A stretch of DNA of 16,012 bases. Source: Planctomycetota bacterium. Lineage in GTDB: Bacteria > Planctomycetota > B129-G9. Below are positions 1 through 16,012 of the stretch, piece after piece (position 1 is the first letter of the stretch; every line of letters begins with the position of its first letter). The translations under genes were made by a program, and so were the position numbers. Below the pieces are notes generated by a model. The model had not been told where the DNA came from, made no database searches, and saw nothing but the letters and a program-made list of their open reading frames with translations. The stretch is taken from NCBI GenBank assembly GCA_030622295.1, contig JAUXGI010000003.1:1-16012 (forward strand). Direction: 5' to 3'.

Positions 1-325
1 GGCTTGCCGTCACATTTTCCAGTTTCATCTTGCGCGCGTTTTTGCGCGGCATGGCAACGATATCGATTCCCGCGGGCAGTTCGTTCCTGGTCAGCCTGAA
101 ACCCTCCCTGAGCAGGCGTTTCAGCCTGTTGCGCTGAACCGCCTTGCCCCATTTCCTGCTGACGGCGGGACCGATACGACTTTGAGTCAGTCCGTTGGGC
201 AGCACAAAAACCAGGACGTTCGCGTCCGCCGCGGTCATTCCGCCGGTGAGAACGCGCTCGAAGTCGCGGTTCGTGCGGAGCCTTTCCTCTTTGCCGAAGG
301 ATGTTTTTTCTGTGCGGGCAGTCAT
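1..325 (-). CDS. rnpA: Ribonuclease P protein component, 3' end cut by window edge
   Basis: RnpA is the protein subunit of RNase P, which removes 5' leaders from precursor tRNAs. Reading from ATG at 325, 108 codons lie in the window. The product begins MTARTEKTSFGKEERLRTNR and carries the family signature RNRLKRLLRE (residues 65-74), followed by the basic strand GIDIVAMPRKNARK. RnpA proteins are usually about 110-130 residues, so nearly the whole gene is present. The start lies 6 nt after the stop of the BioF-like gene, so the two are probably co-transcribed. No strong Shine-Dalgarno sequence is visible. In most bacteria rpmH (ribosomal protein L34) lies just upstream of rnpA; here that place is taken by the BioF-like gene. 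Confidence 0.93.
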   Translation of the reverse strand, partial: MTARTEKTSFGKEERLRTNRDFERVLTGGMTAADANVLVFVLPNGLTQSRIGPAVSRKWGKAVQRNRLKRLLREGFRLTRNELPAGIDIVAMPRKNARKMKLENVTAS

Positions 326-331
326 TTCACT

Positions 332-1495: not shown

Positions 1496-1536
1496 GGTTT
1501 TGTCCGCAGTCAGATGTCCGGAATCCGCCGTCCATT

Positions 1537-2016: not shown

Positions 2017-2023
2017 TGCTGTT

Positions 2024-2031
2024 CCTCCTCC
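2024..2031 (-). promoter_or_regulatory. Strong ribosome binding site of the fabZ-like gene
   Basis: GGAGGAGG on the minus strand, 7 nt before the ATG at 2016. It lies in the 18-nt gap after the upstream stop and is the strongest Shine-Dalgarno sequence I found in this operon. Confidence 0.8.
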
Positions 2032-2034
2032 ATC

Positions 2035-2613
2035 TCACGTGCGAAAGTCGTCAAAGAAGGGATTGAAAAGCCTTTCTATCCCCACAGTGCTGCGGGGGCC
2101 GTGTCCGGGATTGAGAGACATGTGGTCGCCCAGCGTGAGCACCCTTGTCCACAGGGCCTCGGCCTGCTCCAGGAAAGCCTCGCGGTCCGGCGTGCCGCCG
2201 ACCGACCCCGAGAAGAGCGCGTCCCCCGTGAAGACCGCCTCGTCCATCACGCGCAGAGATATGCCGCCCGGCGTGTGGCCCGGAGTGGAGATGACAAATC
2301 CCTGCAACTCCCCCAGTTCGACCACGACATCTTCTTCGAGTTCTTCAACATTTTCCCCGCCGTAGCCTTCGCCCTTGCCCACGAAGACCGTACAGTTGTA
2401 AAGAGACCGGGCTTCGGCGACGCCCCCGGTGTGGTCCGGGTGCGAGTGGGTCAGGAATATGCAGGTCACGTTGAGGCCGCCGGCATCTATGTAGTCCGCT
2501 ATCGCTCCCGTCCACTCGCCCGGGTCTATTATCATCGCCTCGCGGGTCTCGGGGCAGGCTATCACATAGCAGTTCGTGTAATCGCCGCAAACGCTGAAAC
2601 GCTTTAGTAACAT
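2035..2613 (-). CDS. Metallo-beta-lactamase-fold hydrolase (glyoxalase II-like, YcbL-type)
   Basis: This 192-residue protein is of the small metallo-beta-lactamase-fold hydrolase family. It has the complete metal ligand set: THSHPDH (His56, His58, Asp60, His61), His113 in STPGHTPGG, Asp131 in FTGDALF and His171 in NPGHGP. The length and motif spacing fit the short YcbL/glyoxalase II-like group, whose members hydrolyse thioesters such as S-lactoylglutathione; the real substrate is unknown. ATG at 2613 overlaps the pentapeptide-protein stop as TGATG, with AAAGGA a few bases upstream, which suggests translational coupling. The frame remains open further upstream, but that part is arginine/glycine-rich and unlike the family. 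Confidence 0.9.
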   Translation of the reverse strand: MLLKRFSVCGDYTNCYVIACPETREAMIIDPGEWTGAIADYIDAGGLNVTCIFLTHSHPDHTGGVAEARSLYNCTVFVGKGEGYGGENVEELEEDVVVELGELQGFVISTPGHTPGGISLRVMDEAVFTGDALFSGSVGGTPDREAFLEQAEALWTRVLTLGDHMSLNPGHGPRSTVGIERLFNPFFDDFRT

Positions 2614-3482
2614 CAGTCCAGTCCTTTGCTGTCGGTGAAATCGGCGCCATTGATGTCGTTGTTTCCTCTGTTGACGTTCTCGAAGACGACCGACTTGAAT
2701 CTTCCCCGTTCCATGACGGTTTCCAGCAGGTCGCATCTGGCCAGGGTGGAATTGGAGAAGTCCGCTTCGCGTATGATGGCCTTTGCCAGGTTGCAGTCTT
2801 CCAGGGTGGCCTCGCGGAAGTTCGCCGCCGCCGGACGCGACAGGTGGAAGTTCACGCCCCGACACACGGCCCCGTGGAAGGTCGCGCCCGCCAGATTTGT
2901 TCGCGACAGGTCGCACCTGACCAGTTCAGCCGACTCGAAGCTGCATCCGCCCATCACCGCCGCGGCGAAACTCGTATGCTCGACATGCGCCTCGCTGAAA
3001 TTCGCGAAGTCCAGAAACGCCTCCACAAAACTGCACCGCTCCATACCGGCGCTGCTGAAATCCACGTGGGAGCATCTGGCCTCTTCCGCGGCGACCTTGA
3101 CCAGGTCCGCCCTGCTCATGTCGGCCCCCTGCAGGTTTGCACCGGCCAGGTTCACCTTCTCAAGGTAGGACTTCTCCCAGTTCGTGTGGGCCAGGCAGGC
3201 TTCCGCCAGGTTCACGTTCTTGAGGCTGACACGTCTCATGCACGCGCCGGAGAAATTCGCCCCGCGGAGGTCCGCTCCATCCAAGATGACGTCCTCAAAG
3301 TCCACCTTCGCGAAGTTCCCGCCAGCCAGCGACTTGCGCGCGTCGACATGCTCGAAGAGGGTGTTCTTATACGCATCCCTGTCCGTGGTGTGCTGCCAGC
3401 AGTGATCAGAAAGCGCTATCGCATCGAACTGACAGCCCGACGTGCTGCAGCCCCGCCTTTCACGGTTTGCCGTTTGAGCCAT
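2613..3482 (-). CDS. Pentapeptide-repeat protein with an N-terminal Cys/His cluster
   Basis: This 289-residue protein is dominated by pentapeptide repeats from about residue 45 to 285, for example DGADLRGANFSG, NLAGANLQGADMSRADL and NFREATLEDCNLAKAI. Such repeats fold into a right-handed quadrilateral beta-helix. The N-terminus has Cys12, Cys17, Cys28 and His31 (C-x4-C-x10-C-x2-H), spacing compatible with a small zinc knuckle. No signal peptide or membrane segment is seen, so it is likely cytoplasmic. Some family members mimic DNA and protect gyrase, but nothing here shows that role. The ATG at 3482 has GGAG 7 nt upstream. This is the first gene of the minus-strand run toward rnpA and overlaps the next gene by one base. 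Confidence 0.9.
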   Translation of the reverse strand: MAQTANRERRGCSTSGCQFDAIALSDHCWQHTTDRDAYKNTLFEHVDARKSLAGGNFAKVDFEDVILDGADLRGANFSGACMRRVSLKNVNLAEACLAHTNWEKSYLEKVNLAGANLQGADMSRADLVKVAAEEARCSHVDFSSAGMERCSFVEAFLDFANFSEAHVEHTSFAAAVMGGCSFESAELVRCDLSRTNLAGATFHGAVCRGVNFHLSRPAAANFREATLEDCNLAKAIIREADFSNSTLARCDLLETVMERGRFKSVVFENVNRGNNDINGADFTDSKGLD

Positions 3483-3497
3483 GTTTTCGCTCCAAGA

Positions 3498-3511
3498 ATG
3501 TTTCAGAACAT
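3498..3511. promoter_or_regulatory. Small palindrome ATGTT-TCAG-AACAT at the -10/start-site region
   Basis: A perfect 5-bp inverted repeat with a 4-nt centre. It overlaps the -10 box and probable transcription start of the pentapeptide-led operon. It could be an operator half-site pair, but a 5-bp arm may also arise by chance. Confidence 0.3.
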
Positions 3512-3538
3512 GTTAATTCCGATATTGCGCAAAGTCAA
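3510..3538 (-). promoter_or_regulatory. Sigma70-type promoter for the pentapeptide-to-rnpA operon
   Basis: On the minus strand TTGACT (3533-3538) and TAACAT (3510-3515) are separated by 17 nt. The implied start site is near 3503, giving a leader of about 20 nt before the ATG at 3482. The -35 box matches consensus at 5 of 6 positions, the -10 at 4 of 6. Confidence 0.5.
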
Positions 3539-3633
3539 AGCAAATCGAGCGCCTTCTGCGTTCCAGGGTACAAGGACCGCCATTCAGGGGAACGCAGAAA
3601 TCCGTCTTAATGCCCCCATGCCCCCTATACTGT

Positions 3634-3662
3634 TTGACTTTGTGCATTTGCATTCGTAATAT
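3634..3662 (+). promoter_or_regulatory. Sigma70-type promoter for moeA
   Basis: TTGACT (3634-3639), a 17-nt spacer and TAATAT (3657-3662). The start site would be near 3669, about 113 nt before the moeA ATG. Its -35 surroundings, TTTGACTTTGTGCA, nearly repeat those of the divergent promoter (TTTGACTTTGCGCA on the other strand). The intergenic region 3483-3781 otherwise shows no gene. Confidence 0.5.
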
Positions 3663-3781
3663 TGCTTGATGCTCGATGTCATTGTCCGGGTGCCGGGCCG
3701 AAAGGCCGTGGAGCGACACTCAAACAGCGGGGTTTCCCCAACCCGGTTTTCAGCAACTGGAAATCAGCCCACAGTGATGAG

Positions 3782-4990
3782 ATGATTAGTTACGATGAAG
3801 CGTTGACCGTCGCCTTCAGGACCGCGACCTCGGTTCCCAGGCGGGCGGTATCTGTGCCGCTTCTGGAAGCCAGGGGGCGCGTGCTCGCCAGGGAGATAGT
3901 GTCCGACATAGACATGCCCCCCTTCAACCGCGCGGCCATGGACGGCTATGCCGTCCGCGCAGAGGATATCGTGAGCGCGCCGGCTGAACTCGATGTCACA
4001 GGCACGGTCTCCGCGGGAACGATGCCCACCGTGAACGTCGGCCCGGGTCAGGCCGCGCGCATAATGACCGGCGCACCCGTTCCGTCCGGAGCGGACTCGG
4101 TGGTCGGGGTGGAGGACACGGAGTGCCGGAACGAGCGCGTCACCGTGAAGGTGTCATTGCCGGTCGGCAAGAACATCGCCCCTCAGGGCGAGGACGTGCG
4201 CAAGGGGGATGTGGTTGCCGTTGCGGACACGCTCATCAGGACCGCCATGCTGGGGCTGCTGGGCGCGGCGGGCGCGGCAAGCGTCGACGTTTACCGCCAT
4301 CCGGAGGTGGCCGTCCTCACCACCGGCACGGAACTGGTTGACATCTCGCAAAGACCCGCACCGGGACAGATACGCAATACAAACATCCTGACGCTCCGCG
4401 CGCTGCTGGCAGACACGGGAATAAAATGCCGGGAACTGGGGGGCGTCCCGGACGACATCGAAAAGTTGCGCAAAGCCGTCCGGAAGGGCCTTGGCAGCGA
4501 TGTGCTGATGGTGTCGGGCGGGGTCTCAAGGGGTGATTACGACTTCGTCCCCCGGGTGTTTGAAGAGGAGGGTGTGACGAAGATATTCCACAAGGTTGCA
4601 ATGAGGCCCGGCAAGCCGCTGTTCCTGGGACGCAAGGGCGACAAACTCGTCTTCGGCATACCGGGCAACCCGGTGTCGACGTTCGTATCTTTTGAGATGC
4701 TCGTCAAGCCGGTGCTGCTGACACTGAGCGGCGACAGTCGCCATCGCCCGTCTTTCATAAAGGCCACTTTCACGGGCGGTCGCGCCCGGGGCAGTTCACG
4801 CGAGCAGATGCTGCCGGGCATTCTCTCCGCAGGGGACGGGTTGCCGCACGCGAAAACCACGGAGTGGCACGGGTCGGGCGACATGCGGGGTCTGTCTCAG
4901 GCAAACTGCTTCATCCGGGTACCCGGCGGGACGAATCCTCCGGCGGACGGCGACATCGTCGAGGCCCACCCGTTCGGCGCATTTCGCTGA
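3782..4990 (+). CDS. moeA: Molybdopterin molybdenumtransferase MoeA
   Basis: MoeA inserts molybdenum (or tungsten) into adenylylated molybdopterin, the last general step of molybdenum cofactor synthesis. The 402-residue length is normal. Conserved blocks appear in order: PPFNRAAMDGYAVRAED (residues 46-62, Asp54), ARIMTGAPVPSGAD (92-105), TTGTELVD (180-187, Glu184), SGGVSRGDYD (245-254) and FGIPGNPVSTF (291-301), followed by a C-terminal domain IV. ATG at 3782 (MISYDEAL) matches the usual family start. The 40 codons open upstream look non-homologous and would include the predicted promoter's start site. The ribosome binding site is weak. No other molybdopterin gene is in the window. Confidence 0.95.
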   Translation: MISYDEALTVAFRTATSVPRRAVSVPLLEARGRVLAREIVSDIDMPPFNRAAMDGYAVRAEDIVSAPAELDVTGTVSAGTMPTVNVGPGQAARIMTGAPVPSGADSVVGVEDTECRNERVTVKVSLPVGKNIAPQGEDVRKGDVVAVADTLIRTAMLGLLGAAGAASVDVYRHPEVAVLTTGTELVDISQRPAPGQIRNTNILTLRALLADTGIKCRELGGVPDDIEKLRKAVRKGLGSDVLMVSGGVSRGDYDFVPRVFEEEGVTKIFHKVAMRPGKPLFLGRKGDKLVFGIPGNPVSTFVSFEMLVKPVLLTLSGDSRHRPSFIKATFTGGRARGSSREQMLPGILSAGDGLPHAKTTEWHGSGDMRGLSQANCFIRVPGGTNPPADGDIVEAHPFGAFR

Positions 4991-4999
4991 TACATCGCG

Positions 5000-5089
5000 G
5001 GGGAGCATGTAAGAATCCTGAATTTTCACATCGTCTCCAAGTTCCGCGAGGGGACAGTCGCTCAATTTCCAGGATTCTTACATGCTCCC
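5000..5089. repeat. MITE-like 90-bp element with 20-bp perfect terminal inverted repeats
   Basis: GGGAGCATGTAAGAATCCTG at 5001-5020 is repeated exactly in reverse complement at 5070-5089, around a 49-nt centre with no reading frame of note. The sequences just outside, TACATCGCG (4991-4999) and TACGTCGCG (5090-5098), form a 9-bp direct repeat with one mismatch, which looks like a target-site duplication. There is no T-run after the stem, so an intrinsic terminator is less likely. It fills most of the 126-nt gap between moeA and lnt and would form a long hairpin if transcribed. Confidence 0.65.
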
Positions 5090-5116
5090 TACGTCGCGCG
5101 TTCCACTCATGATTCC

Positions 5117-6847
5117 ATGGCTCAATCCGACAAAGCAAAACGCCGCAAGAACAAGACGCGGCGCAGTCCCGCTGATACGAAATCCCGCAGCGAGCCGGGC
5201 ATTGTCGCGACAATCCTGATGCTCCTCATCAGCGGCGTCGTGATGGCGATGGCGTTTCACCCTTTCGACATCCCGCTCTTCGCATGGGTGGCGCTGGTGC
5301 CGTGGCTGATTGCGGTCCTGCGAAAGCGCCCGGCGGCCGCTGCGCTCTGGTCACTCCTGCCCGGTTACATATTCTTCCTGATAGGCGCCTGGTGGATAAC
5401 CGAGGTGACCCACCTCGGGCTGTTTGCGATGTGCATACCGCTGTGCGTTTATTTCGGCCTTTTCGCGCTGGTGACGAATCTTGCGGTGAACCGCCTGGGG
5501 CTGCCGCTCATGCTTGCAGCGCCGCCTGTCTGGGTGGCGTGTGAATTCCTGCGGAGTTTCGTACTCACGGGCTTTCCCTGGCTCTTTCTCGCGCACAGCC
5601 AGTACGCACTTCTGCCCTTAATCCAGATATCCGACATCACCGGCGCTTACGGTGTGTCATTCGTCATCGTGCTCGTCAACGCTTTCATTGCGGAGGTCGT
5701 CCTTCGAATCCTGGACAGGAAGCGGTACAGAAAACTCGACACGCGCGGGCTTCTGCCGCGGGCGATATGCGTTGCGGCCGTTTTTGCGCTGGTGATGGTC
5801 TACGGGTTCCTGCGGCTGGACGCCGTACGCGGGGGGATGCGCGAGGGGCCGAGAATTCTCGTCGTACAGCCCAACGTGGCGCAGTTCCTGAAACGGGAAA
5901 GACAAGCGAGAAGAACCCTTTTCGTGGACATTGAAAGCCAGACGGTTGAGGCCCTGAACAAGGCGTCGGGGGAGATGAAACCGGACATGATTGTCTGGCC
6001 CGAATCGATGATCCAACCCGGACCGGACCACACTGAGGCTTATGAGGCCGTATGGTCCGAGAAGGTAAGAAAGCACGGCTGTCATTTCCTGGCCGGGGGG
6101 ACATATGTGAAAGACGAGCCGCACGTTTACAGGCACTGGAACCCGCACACACAACAATGGCAGGAACAGAAAGACGATTTCACCGACTGGCACAACAGCG
6201 CCTACTTCTTCACGGCGGACGGCCGGTTTCGGGGCAGGTACGACAAGATGCACCTGGTGCCGTTCGGTGAATTTGTTCCGCTGGGGAACATACTCCCGTT
6301 CATGGATGACATAATACTGCAAAGCGCGGGGTTCGTGCGAGACGTGAAACCAGGCGAGAAGATTACTTTCTTTGAAATGACCGGCGCGGACGGCGTCGTG
6401 TACAAGTTTTCCACGCCGATATGCTACGAAGTGGGATTCCCCGACCTTTTCGCCTCATTCGTGGAAAAGGGCGGGGAGAAAAAGGCCGACTACGTCGTGA
6501 ACATATCGAACGACGGCTGGTTCCACGAGAGCGCCGAACTGGAGCAAACGACTACTATAGCCGCCTTCCGCGCGGTTGAGAACCGGGTGGGCGTGGTTCG
6601 CGCGACGAACACGGGCATCTCTGCGTTCATCAAGCCCGACGGTTCTTTCTCGTGGGACGATGACGTTCTCAAGGACGATCGTGGCGTGATGAAATCCGTG
6701 CGGGGCGTGCTCAACCGTCACGTTTACGTCTGCGACGAACTCACCGTCTACTCACGCGTGAAGGACCTGTTCGCCACAGCGATGCTCGTCCTGTCCGGCA
6801 TAGCCCTGGTCGCATCCCTCATCATCCCCCGCATCCGCAAGCGGTAA
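5117..6847 (+). CDS. lnt: Apolipoprotein N-acyltransferase Lnt
   Basis: Lnt adds the third acyl chain to the N-terminal cysteine of lipoproteins in the inner membrane. The 576-residue product has a basic N-terminus, about six hydrophobic segments between residues 28 and 235, then a nitrilase-type domain from about 245 to 535 and a last membrane segment near 550-570. The nitrilase triad is visible: Glu296 in VWPES, Lys377 in YDKMHLVPFGE and Cys436 in TPICYEVGF. NISNDGWFH and AAFRAVENR are also typical. It is somewhat longer than the E. coli enzyme, mainly through the N-terminal tail. It follows moeA on the same strand, separated by the inverted-repeat element. Two lipoprotein genes lie about 0.7-1.9 kb downstream on the other strand. 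Confidence 0.95.
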   Translation: MAQSDKAKRRKNKTRRSPADTKSRSEPGIVATILMLLISGVVMAMAFHPFDIPLFAWVALVPWLIAVLRKRPAAAALWSLLPGYIFFLIGAWWITEVTHLGLFAMCIPLCVYFGLFALVTNLAVNRLGLPLMLAAPPVWVACEFLRSFVLTGFPWLFLAHSQYALLPLIQISDITGAYGVSFVIVLVNAFIAEVVLRILDRKRYRKLDTRGLLPRAICVAAVFALVMVYGFLRLDAVRGGMREGPRILVVQPNVAQFLKRERQARRTLFVDIESQTVEALNKASGEMKPDMIVWPESMIQPGPDHTEAYEAVWSEKVRKHGCHFLAGGTYVKDEPHVYRHWNPHTQQWQEQKDDFTDWHNSAYFFTADGRFRGRYDKMHLVPFGEFVPLGNILPFMDDIILQSAGFVRDVKPGEKITFFEMTGADGVVYKFSTPICYEVGFPDLFASFVEKGGEKKADYVVNISNDGWFHESAELEQTTTIAAFRAVENRVGVVRATNTGISAFIKPDGSFSWDDDVLKDDRGVMKSVRGVLNRHVYVCDELTVYSRVKDLFATAMLVLSGIALVASLIIPRIRKR

Positions 6848-6887
6848 ATCATCCCAACCCACACGTCTCACCACAGAAGCGGGTGTG

Positions 6888-6957
6888 CTCGGGGAGTCAG
6901 ACCCCTCCCGTCGCCCCGACAAGTCGGGGCTCCTCCTCAGCGTCTGACCCCCTCGCC
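6888..6957. repeat. Dispersed hairpin repeat, copy A
   Basis: Outer inverted repeat GTCAGAC (6896-6902) / GTCTGAC (6942-6948) encloses a perfect 8-bp hairpin, GCCCCGAC-AA-GTCGGGGC (6913-6930). The right end CAGCGTCTGACCCCCTCGCC is the same as in copy B and, inverted, as in copy C. It lies between the convergent ends of lnt and the zinc-ribbon gene. Confidence 0.85.
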
Positions 6958-6972
6958 GATCCGCCTCAAGCG

Positions 6973-6996
6973 GAAAAAGACCGGGCAAGGCCCGAC
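6973..6996 (-). terminator. Probable intrinsic terminator of the zinc-ribbon gene
   Basis: On the minus strand a 5-bp GC stem (CGGGC-CTT-GCCCG, 6982-6994), extendable by a wobble pair, is followed by TCTTTTTC. It starts a few bases after the TGA at 6999-7001. Confidence 0.6.
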
Positions 6997-6998
6997 TG

Positions 6999-7451
6999 TC
7001 AGGGCATGAGCAGCAGGGCGACAACCAGTATAATAACGGCCGTGGCGAGAGCGACGCCGCCGATTATGCACAGCAGTTTGCCGGTTTTCATCGGGTTGGC
7101 CGGCGTCAGCGGCTTGCTCTCCGCGGCAGGCTGCCAGTACGGCGGCCACACATAAGGATAATAGGGCCAGGGATACGGCTGTTGGGTTGGACCGCCTTGC
7201 GGGTTCTGGTGATACGGGTGTGGCTGCGGAGCCGACGGCGTCACGACGGCAGGCTCTTGCGGCAGCCGCTGATATTCCGCGCTTGTGGTCGGCGGGGTGT
7301 GAATGATTCCTTTGTGCCCGCAGGCGAAACACCGGAACTCCGTGCCCGCCATTTCGGCCGGCAGCCAGTATTCCCCGCCGCACTTGCAGACGTATCTGAT
7401 TCGATCCATCAAGTCGTCTCTCAGCAACCGGCCTGCAAATTTTACCCGCAT
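6999..7451 (-). CDS. Zinc-ribbon, Pro/Tyr-rich, tail-anchored membrane protein
   Basis: This 150-residue protein of unknown function has three parts. An N-terminal ribbon has Cys22 and Cys24 (VCKCGGEYWLP) and Cys41 and Cys44 (CFACGHKG). A linker of about 70 residues is rich in Pro, Gln, Tyr and Trp (PYPWPYYPYVWPPYWQP). A single hydrophobic helix at residues 125-149 ends the protein (LLCIIGGVALATAVIILVVALLL). It would be anchored by its C-terminus with the ribbon in the cytoplasm. GGAGG at 7459-7463, 7 nt before ATG 7451, supports this start; ATG at 7409 (MDRIRYVCKCGG) is a plausible shorter form and is how many such ribbons begin. The gene stands alone between a terminator and the lipoprotein pair. 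Confidence 0.75.
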   Translation of the reverse strand: MRVKFAGRLLRDDLMDRIRYVCKCGGEYWLPAEMAGTEFRCFACGHKGIIHTPPTTSAEYQRLPQEPAVVTPSAPQPHPYHQNPQGGPTQQPYPWPYYPYVWPPYWQPAAESKPLTPANPMKTGKLLCIIGGVALATAVIILVVALLLMP

Positions 7452-7458
7452 TCCCCGG

Positions 7459-7463
7459 CCTCC
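7459..7463 (-). promoter_or_regulatory. Ribosome binding site favouring the longer zinc-ribbon start
   Basis: GGAGG on the minus strand, 7 nt before ATG 7451. The alternative ATG at 7409 has only a weak GAGACGAC upstream. Confidence 0.5.
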
Positions 7464-7541
7464 GAGAGGGACGGGAAACGCGGGTTAATCGAATTCGCAG
7501 TTGTTTATTTCCGTCAGTCCTGAGGGCGGAGCGCTTCTCCT

Positions 7542-8123
7542 TTAGTCTTCTCTCATCGTCTTATGCAATTCGCCCTTGAGGTAACGTATAACATTTTGGT
7601 TGAGTATTGACATAACATCATCCATTGTCCCGCCAAGGTCGATGTCGCCCGCGATGAACCCGCCGGAATTAAATACGGCGAGTGTTTCGCCCGTCCGGGC
7701 GTCCTTGATTGTGTAGCGCATGATGATATATGCGTCGCCACCCAGGGTCGCGGCACGCTTGATCTTGCTGCCCTCATCATAGTCCAGCAGTTCCCCCTCT
7801 ATGCGAAGCGCCGGCGAACCGGGCACGGCGGTTCCCGCCATAAAGGCCTTCTTATTTAAATCTTCGTTTTTGTTAATTTGCTGGATAAGGTCAGTGCGGA
7901 TTTTGCCGAGGGTCTCGTCAGCGTCAACAAAATCGGTGGTGAACCTTTCAACCATGACACACGGATACTCGGCGGCGGTTTTGTCCTTCAGAGTTAATAT
8001 CCGGACCGTACCGCTTGAGCCGAAAAGAGCGTCTTTCGCCTTACGGGTGGCCACGGCTGCACATCCCGAGGCAAGAGCAAGAAAAAGGGCGGCGCACAGC
8101 AATAATATCTTTCGTGAATTCAT
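7542..8123 (-). CDS. Lipoprotein, DUF4410-like, downstream paralogue
   Basis: This 193-residue protein has a lipoprotein signal peptide (basic MNSRK, hydrophobic core, LASGC with Cys21 as the lipidation site). Residue +2 is Ala, so outer-membrane sorting is expected by the E. coli rule. The mature part contains ALRIEGELLDYDEGSKIKR and YTIKDARTGETLAVFNSGGF, a pattern resembling DUF4410-type lipoproteins; I could not check this assignment. Function is unknown. GGAGAGGA 6 nt upstream is a good ribosome binding site. Roughly two thirds of the residues match the neighbouring paralogue (8182-8745), and the leaders match too, showing recent tandem duplication. It ends with HKTMRED, which the other copy lacks. 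Confidence 0.85.
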   Translation of the reverse strand: MNSRKILLLCAALFLALASGCAAVATRKAKDALFGSSGTVRILTLKDKTAAEYPCVMVERFTTDFVDADETLGKIRTDLIQQINKNEDLNKKAFMAGTAVPGSPALRIEGELLDYDEGSKIKRAATLGGDAYIIMRYTIKDARTGETLAVFNSGGFIAGDIDLGGTMDDVMSILNQNVIRYLKGELHKTMRED

Positions 8124-8807
8124 ATCGTATCCTCTCCAAACATGCCCGGTGAGTTTCTTAATCAGGGACCTTCCCCACTTTTTACAATTCGCCCTTGAGG
8201 TAACGGATAACGTTCCAGTTGAGTACCGGGATTACGTCACCCATTTTCCCGCTAATGCCGATGTTGCCCCCGATGAACCCGGCGGAGTTGAATACGGCGA
8301 GTGTTTCGCCCGTCCGGGCGTCCTTGACCGTGTAACGCATGATGATATATGCTTCGCCACCAGGAATGGTCGCGGCACGCTTAAACTTGTCGCCTTCACT
8401 AAAGTCCAGCAGTTCCCCCTCGATGCGAAGCGCCGGTGAACCAGCCCCGGTCGCCCCCACAAACGCCTCCTTTTTGGGATCCTTGTTATTGTTGATTAAC
8501 TGGACAAGGTTAGTGCGGATTGTGCCGAGGGTCTCGTCAGCGCCCCCGAGTTCGGTGGTGAACTTTTCAACTATGACATACGGATACCCGGCGACGCTTT
8601 TGTCCTTCAGGGCTAACACATGGACTGTCCCTCTCGAACCGTAAAAGACGCTTTTCACCTTGCGGCCGGCCCTGGTTGCACATCCCGAAGCAAGAGTGAG
8701 AAAAAGGGCGGCGCACAACAACAATAGTATCTTTCGTAAATTCATATCGCATCCTCTCCAAACATGCCCGGTAAGTTTCTTAATCAGGGACGTTCCCCGC
8801 TTTTTTT
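7566..8807. repeat. Head-to-tail tandem duplication (about 619 bp + 623 bp)
   Basis: Unit 1 runs about 7566-8184 and unit 2 about 8185-8807. Each starts with CAATTCGCCCTTGAGGTAAC and ends after a T-run beyond the conserved leader (TTGGAGAGGAT, TTAAGAAACT, GTCCCTGATT on the minus strand). Both the coding sequence and the 5' leader are included, so each copy kept its own translation signals. Confidence 0.85.
8182..8745 (-). CDS. Lipoprotein, DUF4410-like, upstream paralogue with shortened C-terminus
   Basis: This 187-residue lipoprotein is the paralogue of the gene at 7542-8123. Its signal peptide ends in LASGC (Cys22), followed by Ala. The shared core includes PALRIEGELLDF, GGEAYIIMRYTVKDARTGETLAVFNS and NVIRYLKGEL. 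The reading frame ends right after KGEL, because the TAA comes from the start of the duplicated leader of the next unit; the last six or seven residues of the paralogue are lost. GGAGAGGA precedes the ATG. The 58-nt gap to the next gene suggests they are co-transcribed, though each has a copy of the same leader. Function is unknown. Confidence 0.85.
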   Translation of the reverse strand: MNLRKILLLLCAALFLTLASGCATRAGRKVKSVFYGSRGTVHVLALKDKSVAGYPYVIVEKFTTELGGADETLGTIRTNLVQLINNNKDPKKEAFVGATGAGSPALRIEGELLDFSEGDKFKRAATIPGGEAYIIMRYTVKDARTGETLAVFNSAGFIGGNIGISGKMGDVIPVLNWNVIRYLKGEL

Positions 8808-8808
8808 A

Positions 8809-8943
8809 AGAGCGTCCAACATAATGAGTAAACACATGTCCTGCTTGAGACGGGGGTCAGACCCTTTCCCGTCGGCCCCGATACATCGGGGCCTCCTCCT
8901 CAGCGTCTGACCCCCTCGCCCGGGGCATTTTGTTAGACGCTCT
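8809..8943. repeat. Nested inverted-repeat element enclosing copy B
   Basis: Arms at 8809-8826 (AGAGCGTCCAACATAATG) and 8926-8943 (CATTTTGTTAGACGCTCT) pair at 16 of 18 positions. Between them lies hairpin repeat copy B. The right arm is 3 bp from the stop codon of the large protease gene, and the left arm abuts the T-run that ends the lipoprotein duplication. GTCCAAC (8814-8820) and GTTAGAC (8932-8938) also fit the RYYYAAC/GTTRRRY core pattern of integron attC sites. The pairing beyond those cores fits terminal repeats better. Confidence 0.55.
8852..8921. repeat. Dispersed hairpin repeat, copy B
   Basis: Outer GTCAGAC (8856-8862) / GTCTGAC (8905-8911) encloses a perfect 9-bp hairpin, GGCCCCGAT-AC-ATCGGGGCC (8874-8893). 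Same orientation as copy A. Confidence 0.85.
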
Positions 8944-8946
8944 AAA

Positions 8947-11900
8947 TCAGATTATACTGATGACGAGTCCCGAGGACTCTATCGACTGGCCCTCAACGAG
9001 TTTCGTCGTCGCCGAGCCCAGTTTGAACTTCATCGTGCCGGCTGTCGCGATGATGCCGTGCGGGTCGCCGCCAATCTCGATTCCCCGCTTGATTGTTACC
9101 TTTGCGATTTCTCCCGCATCATGCTCCACATCGTCGCCGTCGCCGAAGAATCCGGAGGCCCCGGGCGTCGCACCGGCCGCAACGTCGGAATCCCGCAGCC
9201 AGCCTTTTATCTTAACCGACTCTATCGACCCCGCATTGGATTCGTCATCTCCGCCGCCGAGTGTGAAGTCGGAACCGTAGAGATAACCCGCAAGAGTGGT
9301 TGAGTCGGCCATGTCGGTGTCGACGGTCATTTTGTCGATTGACAGTGCGTTCAGGAACGCGCCCTCCATGCGTATCGACTTAAAGGAGTTTATGGCGCCC
9401 GCGGAGAACGCCCTGCCGGAAAACGTGCCGCCGTCGTATTCAATCTCGAAAGAGAAGGGGTTCCTGGAACCTTTTGCGAAGAAATCCTTGATGCCGCCGG
9501 TCAGCGCCAGTATGTCGCCGGTAACGTCGCCGCGCTTTGCGCCGATGGAGCGTATGGCCCAGCCGCGGCTGTCCGCGCCGGTAGCCGTGACCGTGCCGGA
9601 CAAATCCCCGCCGGTGGCGCGCAACTCTCCGATTGTTTCGGCCGTAACGTCGCCGCTTATGTTCCCGCCGCTCACGTACGCCTTCAGCGCGCTGTTGTAG
9701 ACGCCCTTGACCTTGTACTTGCCCAGATGGCCGTCCACGGTCACATCGCCGTTTCCGTCGCCGTGCCTGATTGATATCTCGCGCGCGTTGCTGCGCACCA
9801 CCACGTCGCCGTCCAGGTCACCGCCCCGCACCTTTATCTTGTTGGCGTGTCCGTCAAAGACCATGTCGCCCCCGACGGTGCCACGCGCAGTGAACTTGCC
9901 GCTCAGCGCCCTGTCCTTCGCGTCTTCGCCGCTCATCACATAGAGCGCAAGCGGGTCGTCAACGTCGCCGTCCCCGTCGATGTCGCCCCGCAGGTCAATG
10001 CCGCCCACGGTCATCCCGTTCACGTCGTAGCCCGTGATGCCGCTCTTCAGGCTGATATTCCTGACAGGCGAATCGGAAATGATAAACGCGAGGTCGCCCG
10101 GGTCGCCTGAACGCGAGTCCTTGATATTATCCACCCGGGTTGCTCCGGTGAATATGAACGCCAGGCCGTCCATCGGGTCGTCGCCCGTAAGTTTGACGGA
10201 CTTGACTCGCTCGCCGCGGAACTTCACCCGGATGTCCTCGGCTTCGATGTCAAGCGGGCCCTGCGTGTCAAGAGCGATGACGGTGGCGTTGCCGGACTGC
10301 CACGTCGCCACCACGTTGAAATCCACCTCCGGCTCACCGGTCGGCTCGAAGCCCATCGTGTAGCCCGGATGCGGGTTGCCCGTGTCCGACTCGACGGAGA
10401 CCAGATATGTGACGGCGCCCCCGGCGACGTAGTCCAGCGTCAGGTCTCCCTCGCCGCTCGTCTGATTAACGAGCACCCCCTCGGAGGTGTACAGGCTCAC
10501 ATTCAGGTCATCGACTGCGCCGGGGACCGGCCCTATGACCAGCGTGGATGGGACGGCATCGGTTCTCGGCACGGAGAATGAGAACCAGTCGATTTCCGCC
10601 GCCTGCGCCAGGTTGAAGCCCGAGAGTACCGACTCGGAGTTGATGAGTCCCAGGTCGCAGGCCTTGCCCATAATGGTGTTGGCTCCGGCATGGTCGGCGA
10701 AGGCGGCCTCCGGCGCGTCTATCTCAAGCGCGTACTCGGGGAACAGAGCGCCCGCGTCCGACCGGACCTGAACCAGGTACTCACCCGCGCTCTCGCCGTT
10801 CAGGCTTACCGCCTCCGTGCCGGAGCCGGTATCCGACTGGCCGACAAGCACGCCGTTGCCGTCATAGACCGCCAGTTGCAAATCGCCGTAAGAGTCGTCA
10901 TAGATTACCGTCACGTCGTCATCGGCGCCTCCGTCGGAGCCGATAGTGAAACGGAGCCAGTCGATGTCCGCCTGCGTATGAAGGGCGAGGCCGTCGAAGG
11001 AATGGCCCTCGCCGGAGAGTTGATGCAGGTTGTACGCCAGGGCCGGGGAGTCGTTGTATTCAGCCCAGTCGGGCGTCGCGCCGACGCCGCCCCTGTCCAC
11101 ATCGCCGAACGTCTGCAGGAAGTTCAGCCAGTCGGTCTCGACATTGAAACCGGCATGCAGCGAGGAGTAAGCCGGGTTGATTTCCCAGTCATGTTTGGGG
11201 AAATAAATCGACAAACCGCTCCCGGCCGCAATCGGGGAGATTTGTTCCACGACTGCATCATCAACGGCGTCCGCCAGATTCTGCGCCGCGTCCCGGATGA
11301 ACGGGTTCACGTCGCTGCCCGCGAGCAGTGAGGCGAACTGTCCCACATCCCGGAAATCCGTGTCGCCGAAGAAATCCGCGCCGTCATGCGCATCGGCTAT
11401 TTCCGTCCAGTCGGCCGGAACGGCGGTGTTTATCATTGAAAAGGCAAGGTCGCCCACGGCGTCCACCAAGTCGCTCATCTCGGCGGTGTCAATAACCGAC
11501 AACGTGCGGCCCGGCCACCACGAATATTCCAGGTTGTAACTCTCAAGAAGGCCGGAAGCAAAGGCCTCTCCCGCCACCATGTCGGGAGCGGCTTCCAGCG
11601 CGGCAAAAGCGGTCTCGTAGTCATAGCCGCCGCCGGGTATGACCTGTTGCGAAGCCACGAGGAAGTCGGTGAAATCATTGACGGCGAACGCCGTCTCAGT
11701 CATGCCCATGAGGCATGCGTCGTACGCAACGGCGTCGAAATGGACATCGGCATCATTAAGAGCGTTCCAGAGGTCGCCGGCGGAGAGAAAGTCGCCCGAC
11801 TCGGGGTCGAAGTTCGAGCCCCACGGTCCGTTGCCGTGGTCCCACAGTATAAGCGAGTAGTGATTTGCGGGGGCCCGCTCTTCGCTCCACTCGATGAAAC

Positions 11901-13716
11901 TCTCGAGGACGTTGGAACTGCCGCTGTTTCGCTCGGACAGGATGTCAAAGGTCGTTGCAATCGTATCCATGTCTGAATCGGGCGCAATCAGCGCCCGGCC
12001 GACGGTGCTCCACGGCAACTGGGAGCCCATGCCCGTGGACTCGTCGGCAAGGCCCGCCGTCCTGTCCCAGAACACGGTGATGTTCACGCCCCCGGGCAGG
12101 TTGTCGGCGGCCGCTTCCAACTCGTTGATATCGCCGGCGGCGAAATTCTCCAGGTCGCCGGAAGTCATGTAGACCATGATGGTCCAGTCATCCATCTCCC
12201 CGGGAACCTTGGCCGGGGCATCGATGAGAAGGTCATACGAGTTTGTGTCCCCGCCCTCGCCGAAGACCTGCAGGTAGTAGGTGCCGGCGTCGAGGTTGTG
12301 CAGGGAAATGGTCTCATCGCTGGTATTCGAGGCGGCAATCCGCACGGCGTCCATCGTGTCGTCATAGAGGATCATGTTCAGGTCGCCGAGCGAATGCGCA
12401 AAGTCAATTTTTATGAAGTCCGAACGATTCCCTTCGGCGACGGTCGTGAACGTGAAGTAGTCATTATCGGCGGCGCTGATTGTGAGGTCATTCAGGCGGA
12501 TTGTGCCTGAGACGGTGAGGAGGTCCGTAGCCGAGGCAAAGTCGTCATTGGCCTCCAGGGCATCCGGCGCGAAGGCGGTCACGGGCGCACTGACGGTCAG
12601 CGAATAGTCGGGATTGGTCGCGTCGGCCCATCCGTAAACCCTCGCGTAGTACGTCCCCGCAGCCAGCCCGTCAAGGCTTATGGACTCGCTGTCCCCGACG
12701 CCTTCGGACGAACCGACCAATACGGCGGCATCATCGTACAACTCAATGTCCAGGTCGCCCAGGCTGTGCAAGAAGTCTATCCGGACGGAATGGGCATCGG
12801 CCCCTGCGGCAAGAATATCAAACTCGAACCAGTCATCGTTGCCTGCTTCATGTATTGAGAGGTTTTGCCGGGTATTCACTCCCTCCAGCGCACCCAGGTC
12901 AAAGGCATCCACCAGGGCGTCGTTCGGCTCGGAGGCGTCCGCGCCGATGACGAACGCATCGGAGAGGGGCGCGTTGATTGCCACGGCGTACTGCGGGTTG
13001 GAGTCGCCGTCAAAGCCGAAGACATGGAGATAGTAGAGGCCCGCACGGAGATTGGCCAGGGGGATGGTTTCGTTGTCGCTGAAACCCGCGGCCAGGTCAA
13101 TCAGGCTGCCGTCGGCGTCGTACATCTCGAGGTCAAGGTTGCCCAGCGCATTACTGAACTCCACGCGGGCATAATTATCCCTAGTGCCGTCGGCGAGCAT
13201 TTCGAACATGAACCAGTCGTTATCGCCGCCGGTGATTGTGAGACCCTGTAGTGAGAACTCCCCCTCCGGCTGCCCCAGGTCGAAGGCCGCGGGCATGGAA
13301 TCGTTGGATTCGGCGGCGTCGGCGACTTCTCCGCCCGGCGCGGAGATGGTCAGGTCGTAGTCGTTGGCAGCGCCTGCGAAGCCGGAAACCCGCAGCACAT
13401 AATCCCCCGCCGCCAGTCCCTCAAGGCTTATTCTCTCGATGTTGCCGGAACCGAGCGAAGAGTCTATCTCGGTCATAACGCCGTCGAAGAGAACCATGTC
13501 CAGGTCGCCCAGGGAGTGGTCGAAATCTATCTCGACCAGATGCCCGGCCTCTCCGGTGTCGGAGATGCTGAACTCAACGGTGTCCACCTCGCCCGCCGGG
13601 TCGATTGACAGCCCCGGCTCCAGGTGAAGGCCCTCGATTAAACCGAGGGTGTAGGTGCTGGGGACAATGCGGTCCTCCAGTTGCTCCAGACGGAGGGATA
13701 TTCTTCTTCTCGCCAT
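8947..13716 (-). CDS. Large multidomain surface protein with clostripain-type (C11) protease core and six PPC domains
   Basis: The 1589-residue protein is probably exported. Residues 1-21 carry an arginine-rich start and LEQLEDRIVPS, like the LEPR/LEDR leaders of planctomycete surface proteins; no ordinary signal peptide is seen. Four PPC-like beta-sandwich domains follow (about 44-127, 165-250, 293-378, 417-501), each with a form of SLGDLDIELYD and AGTYYLxVFG. A clostripain-family peptidase (about 509-870) begins DDWTIMVYMTSGDLEN and has the catalytic His627 in LWDHGNG and Cys668 in AYDACLMG. Two more PPC domains lie at about 917-1002 and 1042-1124. Residues 1130-1589 form a glycine- and aspartate-rich beta-repeat region with a calcium-loop-like DIDGDGDVDD (1245-1254). 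A GGAG lies about 9 nt before the ATG. C11 enzymes cleave after basic residues, but the substrate here is unknown. Confidence 0.88.
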   Translation of the reverse strand: MARRRISLRLEQLEDRIVPSTYTLGLIEGLHLEPGLSIDPAGEVDTVEFSISDTGEAGHLVEIDFDHSLGDLDMVLFDGVMTEIDSSLGSGNIERISLEGLAAGDYVLRVSGFAGAANDYDLTISAPGGEVADAAESNDSMPAAFDLGQPEGEFSLQGLTITGGDNDWFMFEMLADGTRDNYARVEFSNALGNLDLEMYDADGSLIDLAAGFSDNETIPLANLRAGLYYLHVFGFDGDSNPQYAVAINAPLSDAFVIGADASEPNDALVDAFDLGALEGVNTRQNLSIHEAGNDDWFEFDILAAGADAHSVRIDFLHSLGDLDIELYDDAAVLVGSSEGVGDSESISLDGLAAGTYYARVYGWADATNPDYSLTVSAPVTAFAPDALEANDDFASATDLLTVSGTIRLNDLTISAADNDYFTFTTVAEGNRSDFIKIDFAHSLGDLNMILYDDTMDAVRIAASNTSDETISLHNLDAGTYYLQVFGEGGDTNSYDLLIDAPAKVPGEMDDWTIMVYMTSGDLENFAAGDINELEAAADNLPGGVNITVFWDRTAGLADESTGMGSQLPWSTVGRALIAPDSDMDTIATTFDILSERNSGSSNVLESFIEWSEERAPANHYSLILWDHGNGPWGSNFDPESGDFLSAGDLWNALNDADVHFDAVAYDACLMGMTETAFAVNDFTDFLVASQQVIPGGGYDYETAFAALEAAPDMVAGEAFASGLLESYNLEYSWWPGRTLSVIDTAEMSDLVDAVGDLAFSMINTAVPADWTEIADAHDGADFFGDTDFRDVGQFASLLAGSDVNPFIRDAAQNLADAVDDAVVEQISPIAAGSGLSIYFPKHDWEINPAYSSLHAGFNVETDWLNFLQTFGDVDRGGVGATPDWAEYNDSPALAYNLHQLSGEGHSFDGLALHTQADIDWLRFTIGSDGGADDDVTVIYDDSYGDLQLAVYDGNGVLVGQSDTGSGTEAVSLNGESAGEYLVQVRSDAGALFPEYALEIDAPEAAFADHAGANTIMGKACDLGLINSESVLSGFNLAQAAEIDWFSFSVPRTDAVPSTLVIGPVPGAVDDLNVSLYTSEGVLVNQTSGEGDLTLDYVAGGAVTYLVSVESDTGNPHPGYTMGFEPTGEPEVDFNVVATWQSGNATVIALDTQGPLDIEAEDIRVKFRGERVKSVKLTGDDPMDGLAFIFTGATRVDNIKDSRSGDPGDLAFIISDSPVRNISLKSGITGYDVNGMTVGGIDLRGDIDGDGDVDDPLALYVMSGEDAKDRALSGKFTARGTVGGDMVFDGHANKIKVRGGDLDGDVVVRSNAREISIRHGDGNGDVTVDGHLGKYKVKGVYNSALKAYVSGGNISGDVTAETIGELRATGGDLSGTVTATGADSRGWAIRSIGAKRGDVTGDILALTGGIKDFFAKGSRNPFSFEIEYDGGTFSGRAFSAGAINSFKSIRMEGAFLNALSIDKMTVDTDMADSTTLAGYLYGSDFTLGGGDDESNAGSIESVKIKGWLRDSDVAAGATPGASGFFGDGDDVEHDAGEIAKVTIKRGIEIGGDPHGIIATAGTMKFKLGSATTKLVEGQSIESSGLVISII

Positions 13717-13821
13717 GTCAGTATACTCCGAATTCGTTTTCCCGATAAAACACCCTGCACTGATAAAACAGTTACAGAAACCGACCCGTATCCCCCTTCC
13801 CGTGCCCTCATTTTCGCCAGC

Positions 13822-13850
13822 ATGATATTGCCCTTGCGCCTGATTGTCAA
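13822..13850 (-). promoter_or_regulatory. Strong sigma70-type promoter of the large protease gene
   Basis: TTGACA (13845-13850), a 17-nt spacer and TATCAT (13822-13827) on the minus strand: perfect -35 and 5/6 -10. Transcription would start near 13815, leaving a leader of about 100 nt. The -35 box lies 6 nt from repeat copy C. Confidence 0.65.
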
Positions 13851-13855
13851 GGCAA

Positions 13856-14002
13856 GGGCGAGGGGGTCAGACGCTGAGGAGCCCCGCCTCGCGGGGCCTT
13901 TTCCTTCCGCGCCCTCTCTTCTCGGACATTATTTCCGAGGTCATGCAAACCGAAAGTATAAGACCCCGCAAGGCGGGGCGGGAAAGGGTCTGACTCCCCG
14001 AG
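13856..14002. repeat. Dispersed hairpin repeat, copy C (inverted, expanded)
   Basis: Same ends as copies A and B but on the other strand: GTCAGAC (13866-13872) and GTCTGAC (13988-13994). The interior is longer and has three hairpins: GCCCCGC-CTC-GCGGGGC (13881-13897), CTCGGA/TCCGAG (13921-13939) and CCCCGC-AAG-GCGGGG (13964-13978). With the promoter it accounts for the 13717-14007 gap, which contains no gene. Confidence 0.8.
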
Positions 14003-14007
14003 CTTCG

Positions 14008-14730
14008 TTATTTGGTGAGGGAGAGGACCTCGACGCCTTCTACCTGCCGGAAGTTGGCGCCCTGGCCGATGCAGCGCAACGCTGCTTCCGCATCAGTCAC
14101 GAGCGAGCCGCACAAGACATCGAAGCCGTAATCAAGCAGAACCGGGGTGAGCGGCGTGGTCGGGCCGAGCATTATCTTGAAAGCGTCGGGCCGGCAGTGC
14201 GACAGGACTTCGTCGAGTGTATGGTTGATGAGGGTGGTGCCGCTGACGGCGACGACGTCGCACTGCGGCAGGTAGCGGGCGTACTCTTCGCGGGGCAAAT
14301 CACCGGGCGCGGGTCTCAGTTCGTATATCCACAGGTTCTTCGCGTGCTCGCGCAGTTTGCCGATGAAGGGGAAATGCCCGATGATGCCTATGTTTTTCCC
14401 TTTCCCCTTTTCGATTATCACTTCGCGGGCGTTCATCTCGACACATTTCTCGATGTCGATGTCTATCAGCGAGTTTACTGCGGCCATGCCGATGGAGGCT
14501 TCGAGGGGCAGGTCGGACAGGGCCATGCGCGCCAGGTTCAGGGCGCTTCCATAATCGAGCCCGCCGGCGGACTTCACCTGAAAGACATTGCCCCCATGAC
14601 AGTCCAGCCGCAGAGTCGAGGCCAGGCCGCAACGGCGCGAAACGACCGCCGTCCAGAAGGTACACGTACGGACGTCCTTTACGGGTGCGTCGTTCCCGAT
14701 GCCCCCGATTATGTCTTCGATAATCTTCAT
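14008..14730 (-). CDS. DUF4213/DUF364 (putative heavy-metal chelation) protein
   Basis: This 240-residue protein matches the two-part architecture of DUF4213 (about residues 1-95, ending in AAVNSLID) and DUF364 (about 105-235). Visible family marks are IGIIGHFPFI (114-123), the SGTTLINHTLDEVL segment (163-176), GPTTPLTPVLLDYGFD (189-204) and CGSLVTD (207-213). The family has been described as putative heavy-metal chelators; its exact reaction is not settled. No signal peptide is seen. The ATG lies about 42 nt after the thioesterase stop, with no clear ribosome binding site and no alternative ATG/GTG in between. It is the last gene of the three-gene operon with the Mrp-NifX fusion, and repeat copy C follows directly. 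Confidence 0.85.
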   Translation of the reverse strand: MKIIEDIIGGIGNDAPVKDVRTCTFWTAVVSRRCGLASTLRLDCHGGNVFQVKSAGGLDYGSALNLARMALSDLPLEASIGMAAVNSLIDIDIEKCVEMNAREVIIEKGKGKNIGIIGHFPFIGKLREHAKNLWIYELRPAPGDLPREEYARYLPQCDVVAVSGTTLINHTLDEVLSHCRPDAFKIMLGPTTPLTPVLLDYGFDVLCGSLVTDAEAALRCIGQGANFRQVEGVEVLSLTK

Positions 14731-14772
14731 GTCGTGACCGGGCGTCGGCAGCCCGCCAATTTCGCGCCGGAG

Positions 14773-15174
14773 TCAATCCCCGAAATGCATGAACCTTCCT
14801 TCCGCTTTTGCGGCGACCTTGCCGTCCCTTTTCAGCAGGGCCTCGACCATGTACAACCCCGCCCGCTTTCCTGTTTCCCGGGCCTCGATTGCCGTTTCGG
14901 CCCCTATCGGCACGGACTCAAGATACCTCACCGACAGCCTTCCGGTCAGGCACCGAACGCCTTTCATCAGCAGGCAGTGTATCATGGCCGAGCCGAGCAG
15001 CAGGGCTATAATCCCGCCGTGGAGGACTCCGTCGTAACTCTGGTAGATGTCCCTGGCCACCCAGCGGGTTCTTGCTACACCGTCCGGCCCTGCCACAAAT
15101 TTCAGGCCCAGGCCGCCTTCGCTTTCGGGACGGCAGGCAAAGCAGTTCTTGTGTCGCGGCGGGTCAATGGTCAC
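14773..15174 (-). CDS. Hotdog-fold thioesterase-like protein (PaaI/4HBT superfamily)
   Basis: This 133-residue hotdog protein has the N-terminal NCFACRPE, then YQSYDGVLHGGIIALLL (His52-Gly53-Gly54) and LSVRYLESVPIG. The family hydrolyses acyl-CoA thioesters. After HGGII, related enzymes usually have an Asp or Glu in LLDxAM that serves in catalysis; here the segment reads LLGSAM, with Gly61 (GGC, one base away from GAC) in that place. The protein may therefore be inactive as a thioesterase, use another residue, or bind rather than cleave. The start is GTG at 15174, overlapping the upstream gene by 11 bases, with AGGGGG 8 nt before it. It is the middle gene of the operon. Confidence 0.8.
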   Translation of the reverse strand: MTIDPPRHKNCFACRPESEGGLGLKFVAGPDGVARTRWVARDIYQSYDGVLHGGIIALLLGSAMIHCLLMKGVRCLTGRLSVRYLESVPIGAETAIEARETGKRAGLYMVEALLKRDGKVAAKAEGRFMHFGD

Positions 15175-16012
15175 AGATATTGCCCCCTGCTTGAAGTATC
15201 CCGGCGAGGTACTGCCTGACTACCTCTTCGGGTTCGAGCGTGGGGGCTCCGACAAGGACCTTTACCCCGGCCTGCTCAAACAGGCTGACGGCTCTCTGAC
15301 CCATGCCGCTGACTATCACCAGTTTCACGCCTTCCCCGCTGAGCCATCGCGGGTAAACCCCGGGCTGATGTTCGGGGGGTTCTGCGAAGTTTGTGCCGAT
15401 AATTTTATCGTCCTCGACATCTACGAGTGCAAACTTCTCGCAATGCCCGAAGTGCATGCACAACTTACCGCCTGCCGTAGGTATTCCAATGCGCATACGT
15501 TTATCCTTACTGCTGTAGGAAATGGTGTGGGGGAGACGGGCTTCGGCCCGTTCCGGGAAAACCTGAAGATCGCCTTCCACTTTTTTCTCTGGAGTCGAGC
15601 GCTTGCCCTCAACTCCGTCCAGGATTTTATCCACGACGGCCCCAAAGGCCTTTGCCGCAGGGCTGTCCGCGTGGCGTTGCATGAAGGAGGCGCCGCTGTC
15701 CGATGCGTGGACTATCCGAGGGTCAATGGGTATCGAGCCAAGCAGCGGCGCGCCAGTCTCCCTGCTCAATTTCTCGCCGCCGCCGGCCTTGAAAACGTCT
15801 ATGTGCTCCCCGCAATGCGGGCATTCCAGCCCCGCCATGTTCTCGATTATTCCCAGAACCGGCACCTTTAGTTCTTTGCAGAACGTTATGCACCTTCTGA
15901 CATCGACGACCGAAACGTCCTGAGGCGTGGTGACGACTACAGCGCCGTCTATGCCCGGCAGCAACTGGCAAATGCTTAGAGGTTCGTCGCCCGTGCCGGG
16001 CGGGGAATCGAC
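15164..16012 (-). CDS. mrp: Mrp/NBP35-family Fe-S carrier ATPase fused to NifX/NifB-like (ORP) domain, 5' end off window
   Basis: 282 residues of the C-terminal part lie in the window; the P-loop N-terminus is beyond 16012. The fragment opens with VDSPPGTGDEPLS, the Mrp-family switch region, and continues with VVVTTPQDVSVVDVRR and IENMAGLECPHCG, whose CxxC (Cys64, Cys67 of the fragment) binds the bridging Fe-S cluster. From about fragment residue 173 a dinitrogenase iron-molybdenum cofactor-type domain follows: GIPTAGGKLCMHFGHCEKFALVDVED, PGVYPRWLSGEGV and VSGMGQRAVSLFEQ. This arrangement is that of MrpORP proteins known from sulfate reducers. Likely role: cytoplasmic assembly or delivery of Fe-S or mixed-metal clusters. 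It is the first visible gene of the operon and overlaps the hotdog gene. Confidence 0.92.
   Translation of the reverse strand, partial: VDSPPGTGDEPLSICQLLPGIDGAVVVTTPQDVSVVDVRRCITFCKELKVPVLGIIENMAGLECPHCGEHIDVFKAGGGEKLSRETGAPLLGSIPIDPRIVHASDSGASFMQRHADSPAAKAFGAVVDKILDGVEGKRSTPEKKVEGDLQVFPERAEARLPHTISYSSKDKRMRIGIPTAGGKLCMHFGHCEKFALVDVEDDKIIGTNFAEPPEHQPGVYPRWLSGEGVKLVIVSGMGQRAVSLFEQAGVKVLVGAPTLEPEEVVRQYLAGILQAGGNICDH

Follow-up and report, generated by a model that had tools for sequence, protein, structure and literature searches.

We analyzed a dispersed palindromic repeat, very probably a family of mobile elements, in a 16,012-nt stretch of planctomycete DNA (the window; JAUXGI010000003.1, positions 1 to 16,012). 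The window is contig 175 of a metagenome-assembled genome that comprises 1,848,359 bases in 412 contigs and is 73.6% complete. Three copies of the element are found in it. Copies A (6888..6956) and B (8851..8919) are on the plus strand and have a short form, with the inner hairpins GCCCCGACAAGTCGGGGC and GGCCCCGATACATCGGGGCC, respectively. They score 94.8 and 83.5 bits with R1, a covariance model of the element. Copy C (13859..14002) is on the minus strand and belongs to a longer span class of 130-157 bp, in which two GC hairpins and a middle stem are located between the conserved ends. The 25-mer right end, CTCCTCAGCGTCTGACCCCCTCGCC, is exact in all three copies and has matches in 0 of 200 shuffles. 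All three are located between called open reading frames. The neighbors of copy A are convergent (gene ends at 6847 and 6999), and B and C are each flanked by tandem minus-strand genes. An earlier sequence-only reading of the window had described three copies with shared ends, two in one orientation and one in the other, each in a gap between genes. These descriptions hold, with coordinates correct to within a few bases and revised here. It had also given C an expanded interior with three hairpins. The expansion is confirmed: the interior contains a middle hairpin in addition to two GC hairpins, although in the minimum-energy fold the GC hairpins are fused into one long stem.

The element is abundant in the host genome, and the earlier observation is correct and understated. 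A 20-nt pattern from the right end has 160 matches with up to three mismatches in the whole host assembly, 39 of them exact, and the reversed pattern has none. Further analysis was carried out on a sample made up of 100 of the 412 contigs and the window, in total 599,643 bases including 17,902 N. Densities in this sample differ from genome averages because 74 of the 100 contigs were picked for end matches or Y1 transposase genes. It contains 107 pairs of left and right ends whose starts are less than 150 nt apart. There are 148 right-end-like matches, a number that overstates the right ends: 108 have a left end within 260 nt, nine are located in the first 160 nt of the strand read, and 16 of the 31 that remain are the complement of left ends. 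The spans are mainly 46-67 bp and 130-157 bp, with few between or beyond. The element is thus short, non-coding and dispersed in multiple copies with terminal inverted repeats, features of a miniature inverted-repeat transposable element (MITE).

The ends of the element are fixed. Across 82-83 short copies, the left core GTCAGACCC and the right core GCGTCTGACCCCCT are 96-100% conserved. GGGGAGTCAGACCC is the usual left end, with an A after GGGG in 86% of 82 short copies; in copy B the left end is GGGGGTCAGACCC. The two ends are inverted and pair over 11 bp, GGGG(A)GTCAGACCC ... CAGCGTCTGACCCCC. Between them, the presence of a hairpin is conserved, and its sequence is not. Stem pairs were analyzed in an alignment of 24 copies with distinct interiors (24 of 26 listed). 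Nine of the 11 pairs in the outer stem are invariant, and all seven pairs in the inner stem change on both sides. Pairing is found in 97.2% of cells, compared to 33-54% with shifted partner positions. Among 83 short copies, 30 different inner-hairpin sequences are found. In 65 of these copies, a stem pairs perfectly over 6 bp or more, compared to 111 of 4,150 mononucleotide shuffles, and 13 of the remaining 18 have a CGTCGCTTCG interior with a very short stem. Direct repeats in the flanks, the candidates for a target-site duplication as in MITEs, are weak (score of at least 11 in 6 of 97, compared to 1.6% of cross-paired flanks), and the boundaries assigned to the element are uncertain.

The amplification is limited to the host and one relative. 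Of 59 genomes, two contain the 15-nt core, with counts of 125 in the host and 7 in its congener G001. The R1 model recovers the same two genomes, with at least 83 copies in the host (85 candidates scored) and 10 in G001, where the copies likewise vary in the inner hairpin. Plasmids and phages contain no match to copy B. In a wider contig collection, a 17-mer was found in 14 stretches. About 30 are expected by chance with equal base use, and therefore only three stretches, from Planctomycetota bacterium isolate B129_G9, were counted as related. A viral contig with one exact 17-mer match was rejected as a relative; no second end or hairpin is present in the 201 nt read. An empty-site comparison was uninformative on insertion. 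The sole long syntenic match in G001 is lnt, followed there by a different gene.

Most copies are intergenic. Genes were called with a simple codon-usage caller (443 genes, 84.6% coding). At most half of the length is in called genes for 92 of the 107 elements; of random 60-mers, 84.6% have more than half of their length in coding sequence. The two outcomes that would have refuted the sequence-only reading, a lack of additional copies and a random placement inside genes, were thus not seen. Two functional roles had been considered in the sequence-only reading, a small structured RNA and a bidirectional terminator. More broadly, the element could serve the host through its RNA or terminator structure, with duplication having spread it and selection on the hairpin maintaining the copies. 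The compensating changes that preserve the inner stem are in favor of this, and so are the stable folds: the z-scores on the plus and minus strands are -3.7 and -4.6 for A, -6.2 and -6.6 for B, and -4.1 and -6.7 for C. The long form adds two terminator-like hairpins, each with a T-rich tail pointing inward, at 13881..13897 (+) and 13963..13979 (-) in copy C. In a terminator scan of 6700-14200, which gave 10 sites compared to 6.6 expected in shuffles, C was flagged twice and A and B were not flagged. Only hairpins inside the long form combine a hairpin with a T-run at gene ends, as in intrinsic terminators. Because of the two hairpins in C, the long form may act in termination.

The gene context argues against a terminator role for the whole family. 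Sixty-three elements have called genes as neighbors to the left and right; 43 of these are between tandem, 12 between convergent and 8 between divergent genes. This is similar to random intergenic positions (66%, 16% and 18%, respectively), with no enrichment between convergent genes. The orientation relative to tandem genes is opposite in 27 cases and the same in 16, and 15 of the 107 copies are mostly within called, unchecked reading frames. The structured RNA is unsupported. No Rfam family was found at the gathering score, the one match reaching 25.8 bits of the 52 required (E 0.12), and the sequence of the interior shows no conservation. In addition, the ends are conserved far past the needs of pairing, and amplification is seen only in the host and one congener. 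We therefore consider retention for a host function very unlikely.

A mobile element requires an enzyme, and candidates are present in the host. Our search, which covered the Y1_Tnp family, revealed three Y1_Tnp genes above the cut-off and a contig-truncated C-terminal piece resembling one of them, P0001. P0001 is located on contig 261 and encodes 330 amino acids (Y1_Tnp, 47.7 bits). Its C-terminus is weakly DnaA-like (Bac_DnaA_C, 19.6 bits, below the cut-off of 31.5). A Y1_Tnp domain with a DnaA-like or helix-turn-helix-like C-terminus is the make-up reported for the TIRYTs and for TnpA_REP subclass 2.1 (PMC3733652, PMC6006769). This subclass probably corresponds to the TIRYTs, which are described in the former source as RAYT-related Y1 transposases with the terminal motif GGGGWSAS. 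The host genome thus encodes a TIRYT-type transposase, with one complete gene, P0001, and a fragment of another.

Both P0001-type genes are bordered by palindromes. P0001 has 43-bp palindromes, CTACTGTCACCTAAAGGGGTCAGACCCCTTTAGGTGACAGTAG with the core GGGGTCAGACCCC, on both sides in direct orientation. The truncated piece (L050:12820-13216, 48% identity over residues 196-325) has on its visible side the palindrome ATTTCAACTTTGGGGTCAGACCCTAAAGTTGAAAT, with a GGGGTCAGACCC core and other arms. In palindromes with the GGGGTCWGACCC core, the core is kept and the arms change; of the 36 such sites in the sample, 25 have arms of 10 or more, in 22 different strings. Among 149 genomes, AGGGGTCWGACCCCT is present 57 times in the host and once in each of two others. 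The two remaining Y1 genes of the host, L009 and L011, are RAYT-like and have repeat types of their own, AATTAGGGTCAGG and AAAAAGGGGACAGTCCCC. A domain search found no DnaA-like domain in the L011 protein.

The core of the element, GGGGTCAGAC, fits GGGGWSAS. So does the right end, where GGGGTCAG is part of GAGGGGGTCAGACGC, and so do the left ends of a minority of copies, B among them. This core is common to the element and to the palindromes bordering the TIRYT-type genes of the host. P0001 has matches at E <=1e-20 in 73 of 392 genomes, including the host. We fetched 30 P0001-type loci (L160-L189), of which 24 have two usable flanks; gene limits were taken from the locus length and are approximate where a contig ends early. 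Among the 30 loci, long palindromes bordering the gene were found only at the host's own. Inverted GGGGWSA is found at nine of the 24 loci, and at none in the swapped and reversed-letter controls. An exact GGTCAGACC...GGTCTGACC is found at four, and at none in the swapped control. Together with the published consensus, the inverted GGGGWSA at these loci ties the core of the element to the TIRYT group.

These data point to a non-autonomous, REPIN/MITE-like palindromic mobile element whose ends are probably recognized by a TIRYT in trans, a reading that we favor with moderate confidence. The family is more likely of the TIRYT kind than of another. The suggestion of a REP/MITE-type element (REP, repetitive extragenic palindromic) in the sequence-only reading is supported by the many mostly intergenic copies, the conserved inverted ends, an amplification confined to the host and one congener of 59 genomes, and the core in common with a transposase group of the same genome. 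We infer that the element moves as follows. A TIRYT, which is a RAYT-related single-strand transposase of the Y1/HUH type, would recognize the inverted ends. One strand would fold into a long imperfect hairpin, which would be the substrate of the transposase. The enzyme would read the fixed ends and require only pairing in the apical hairpin, leaving its sequence free, and this apical slot may have been refilled many times by other palindromes.

Several observations weigh against this reading. None of the Y1 genes found in the 73.6%-complete assembly is bordered by the full ends of the element, and only the core is common; the element is therefore not classed as a proven TIR member. The majority left end, GGGGAGTCAG (GGGGAGTCAGAC), breaks GGGGWSAS by its extra A, and the two ends are thus unlike. 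The consensus is also loose: the L011 repeat AAAAAGGGGACAGTCCCCTTTTT, with the core GGGGACAG, fits it too. Inverted GGGGWSA is lacking at 15 of the 24 usable loci, including that of P0001 itself. The congener G001 (79% complete) has the element without the AGGGGTCWGACCCCT palindrome, and its one Y1 gene is only 30% identical to P0001, so that no close relative is present. Finally, no excision, insertion or empty site was observed in the one genome of the species that was covered.

The lack of full ends beside the Y1 genes, the congener without a close P0001 relative, the unlike ends and a host search that covered only Y1_Tnp among transposase families are all in agreement with a different enzyme. 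The element could be a miniature element of another transposase, for example of the DDE type, that is lost, unassembled or outside the search, its likeness to TIRYT ends being coincidence or convergence. However, the inverted GGTCAGACC core at P0001-relative loci, with none in the swapped control, and the presence of this core beside both host P0001-type genes argue against coincidence. We regard this alternative as unlikely.

Palindromes are nested in and around the element, and a minority of copies are enclosed by larger ones. Copy B is located in a larger palindrome with arms at 8806..8826 and 8926..8946 (+), a 21-nt inverted repeat that is 86% complementary. Flanking inverted repeats with a score of at least 11 are found at 19 of 94 elements, compared to 5.0% of cross-paired flanks (140/2,791) and 3.5% of random intergenic positions (52/1,500). 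At a score of at least 15, they are found at 12 of 94, compared to 1.8% and 0.2%, respectively. The other 75 elements are without such a repeat. Seven flanking modules, M1-M7, are located within 110 nt of 46 of the 107 elements and of 89 of 1,500 random intergenic spots, an enrichment that is biased upward because the modules were picked from element flanks. The left flank of copy A (6858..6887, +) resembles M6 by eye, with CTCACCACAGAAGCGGGTGTG in place of the CTCACCACAGAAGCGAGTGTG beside other copies. In five copies of M7, the same arms enclose a GGAACCTCGCGAG hairpin (three copies), a GGCCCCGAC hairpin (one) or the element (one).

A 15-bp palindrome, TCCGCCTGAGGCGGA, is found both in the loops of other hairpins and within element ends. 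It has 101 matches in the host (for example L014:783-797 (+), L069 and L086), 104 in G137 and 32 in G002, whereas the congener G001 has none. Its patchy distribution in the phylum, eight of 149 genomes including the host, suggests that it may be an independent, spreading mini-palindrome. Module M5 is composite and about 170 bp long, with TACACCGTCAACCTTAA... as its outer arms, and in many copies the element is at its center (L041, L076, L099 and others). An M5-like composite is also found in G001 (L143), as if it had spread as a unit.

The diversity of the hairpins could also arise mainly from replication errors, by template switching between palindromes, or from recombination, rather than from cassette insertion. 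In favor of this, the stems are perfect, and at some joins a few bases are exchanged rather than sequence just being added (GTCAGACCCTTCCCG compared to GTCA-TCCGCCTGAGGCGGA-TTCCCG). However, the same cassettes are found in unrelated surroundings, and the dispersal of the whole element is left unexplained. We consider this origin highly improbable; it is compatible with the mobile-element reading.

A wider proposal extends the mobile-element reading to a palindrome-in-palindrome system, which we regard as possible but doubtful. Unrelated hairpins would insert into or replace the tips of hairpins, and nesting would build composite mobile elements. The cores (GGGGTCAGAC) would be fixed and the other stems free as long as they are paired. 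Single-strand transposases would target hairpin tips.

Other features are located near the copies. A terminator-like minus-strand hairpin, GTCGGGCCTTGCCCGGTCTTTTTCC, adjoins copy A (6966-6996). In L053, a hairpin with a T-run much like it comes after a right-end core, as if terminators were among the cassettes. Between copies A and B, 7542-8123 and 8182-8745 encode tandem related small proteins with lipoprotein-like starts (66% identity over 172 amino acids), one with a DUF4410 match just under the cut-off. Between B and C, 8947-13716 encodes a protein of 1,589 amino acids with a clostripain-family (C11) peptidase domain and PPC domains.

The origin and diversification of REP-like repeats are open questions, and de novo formation is named as a future one in PMC3733652. 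The copies described here provide a natural before-and-after series: the hairpin that occupies one slot differs from copy to copy, and some copies are nested in other palindromes. Our analysis indicates that the TIRYT group, which has been little studied, may have an abundant and modular family of elements in Planctomycetota. Among the openly licensed papers listed by our searches, no title or abstract opening describes the element. The discrete hairpin cassettes shared between copies seem to be new, as does the nesting, in the chromosome of a bacterium that also encodes candidate transposases.

Very small mobile hairpins are known in bacterial genomes from the small dispersed repeats (SDR) of cyanobacteria, to which the element is likened by description only. 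Closer comparisons can be made with three systems. The TIRs of TIRtrons and their TIRYTs (PMC3733652; subclass 2.1, PMC6006769) are alike in having inverted GGGGWSAS-like ends. These TIRs are palindromic, moderately abundant in some genomes and border Y1 transposases with a DnaA/HTH-like C-terminus (HTH, helix-turn-helix); two cases of TIRs joined to unrelated stem-loops are mentioned in Pseudomonas. Unlike them, the element has an interchangeable inner-hairpin cassette, more than 100 copies and two fixed, unlike ends; its full ends are not found beside a TIRYT, and most of its left ends have the extra A. REPINs (PMC3116915) are intergenic, are proposed to be mobilized in trans by a RAYT, and have inverted conserved ends around a spacer kept mainly in length and pairing by compensatory changes. 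The element is similar in its ends and pairing spacer. However, its conserved ends are without the GTAG of REP ends and border no Y1 gene, its spacer hairpins are discrete cassettes also found elsewhere, and it has a long class with extra hairpins. In the organelles of Volvox carteri (PMC2670323), short palindromes are inserted into one another to form larger composites, as here, whereas our repeats are in a bacterial chromosome, have different sequences and accompany Y1 transposase genes bordered by related palindromes. If the palindrome-in-palindrome proposal is true, the selfish palindromes nested in one another in Volvox organelles would have their counterpart in a bacterium.

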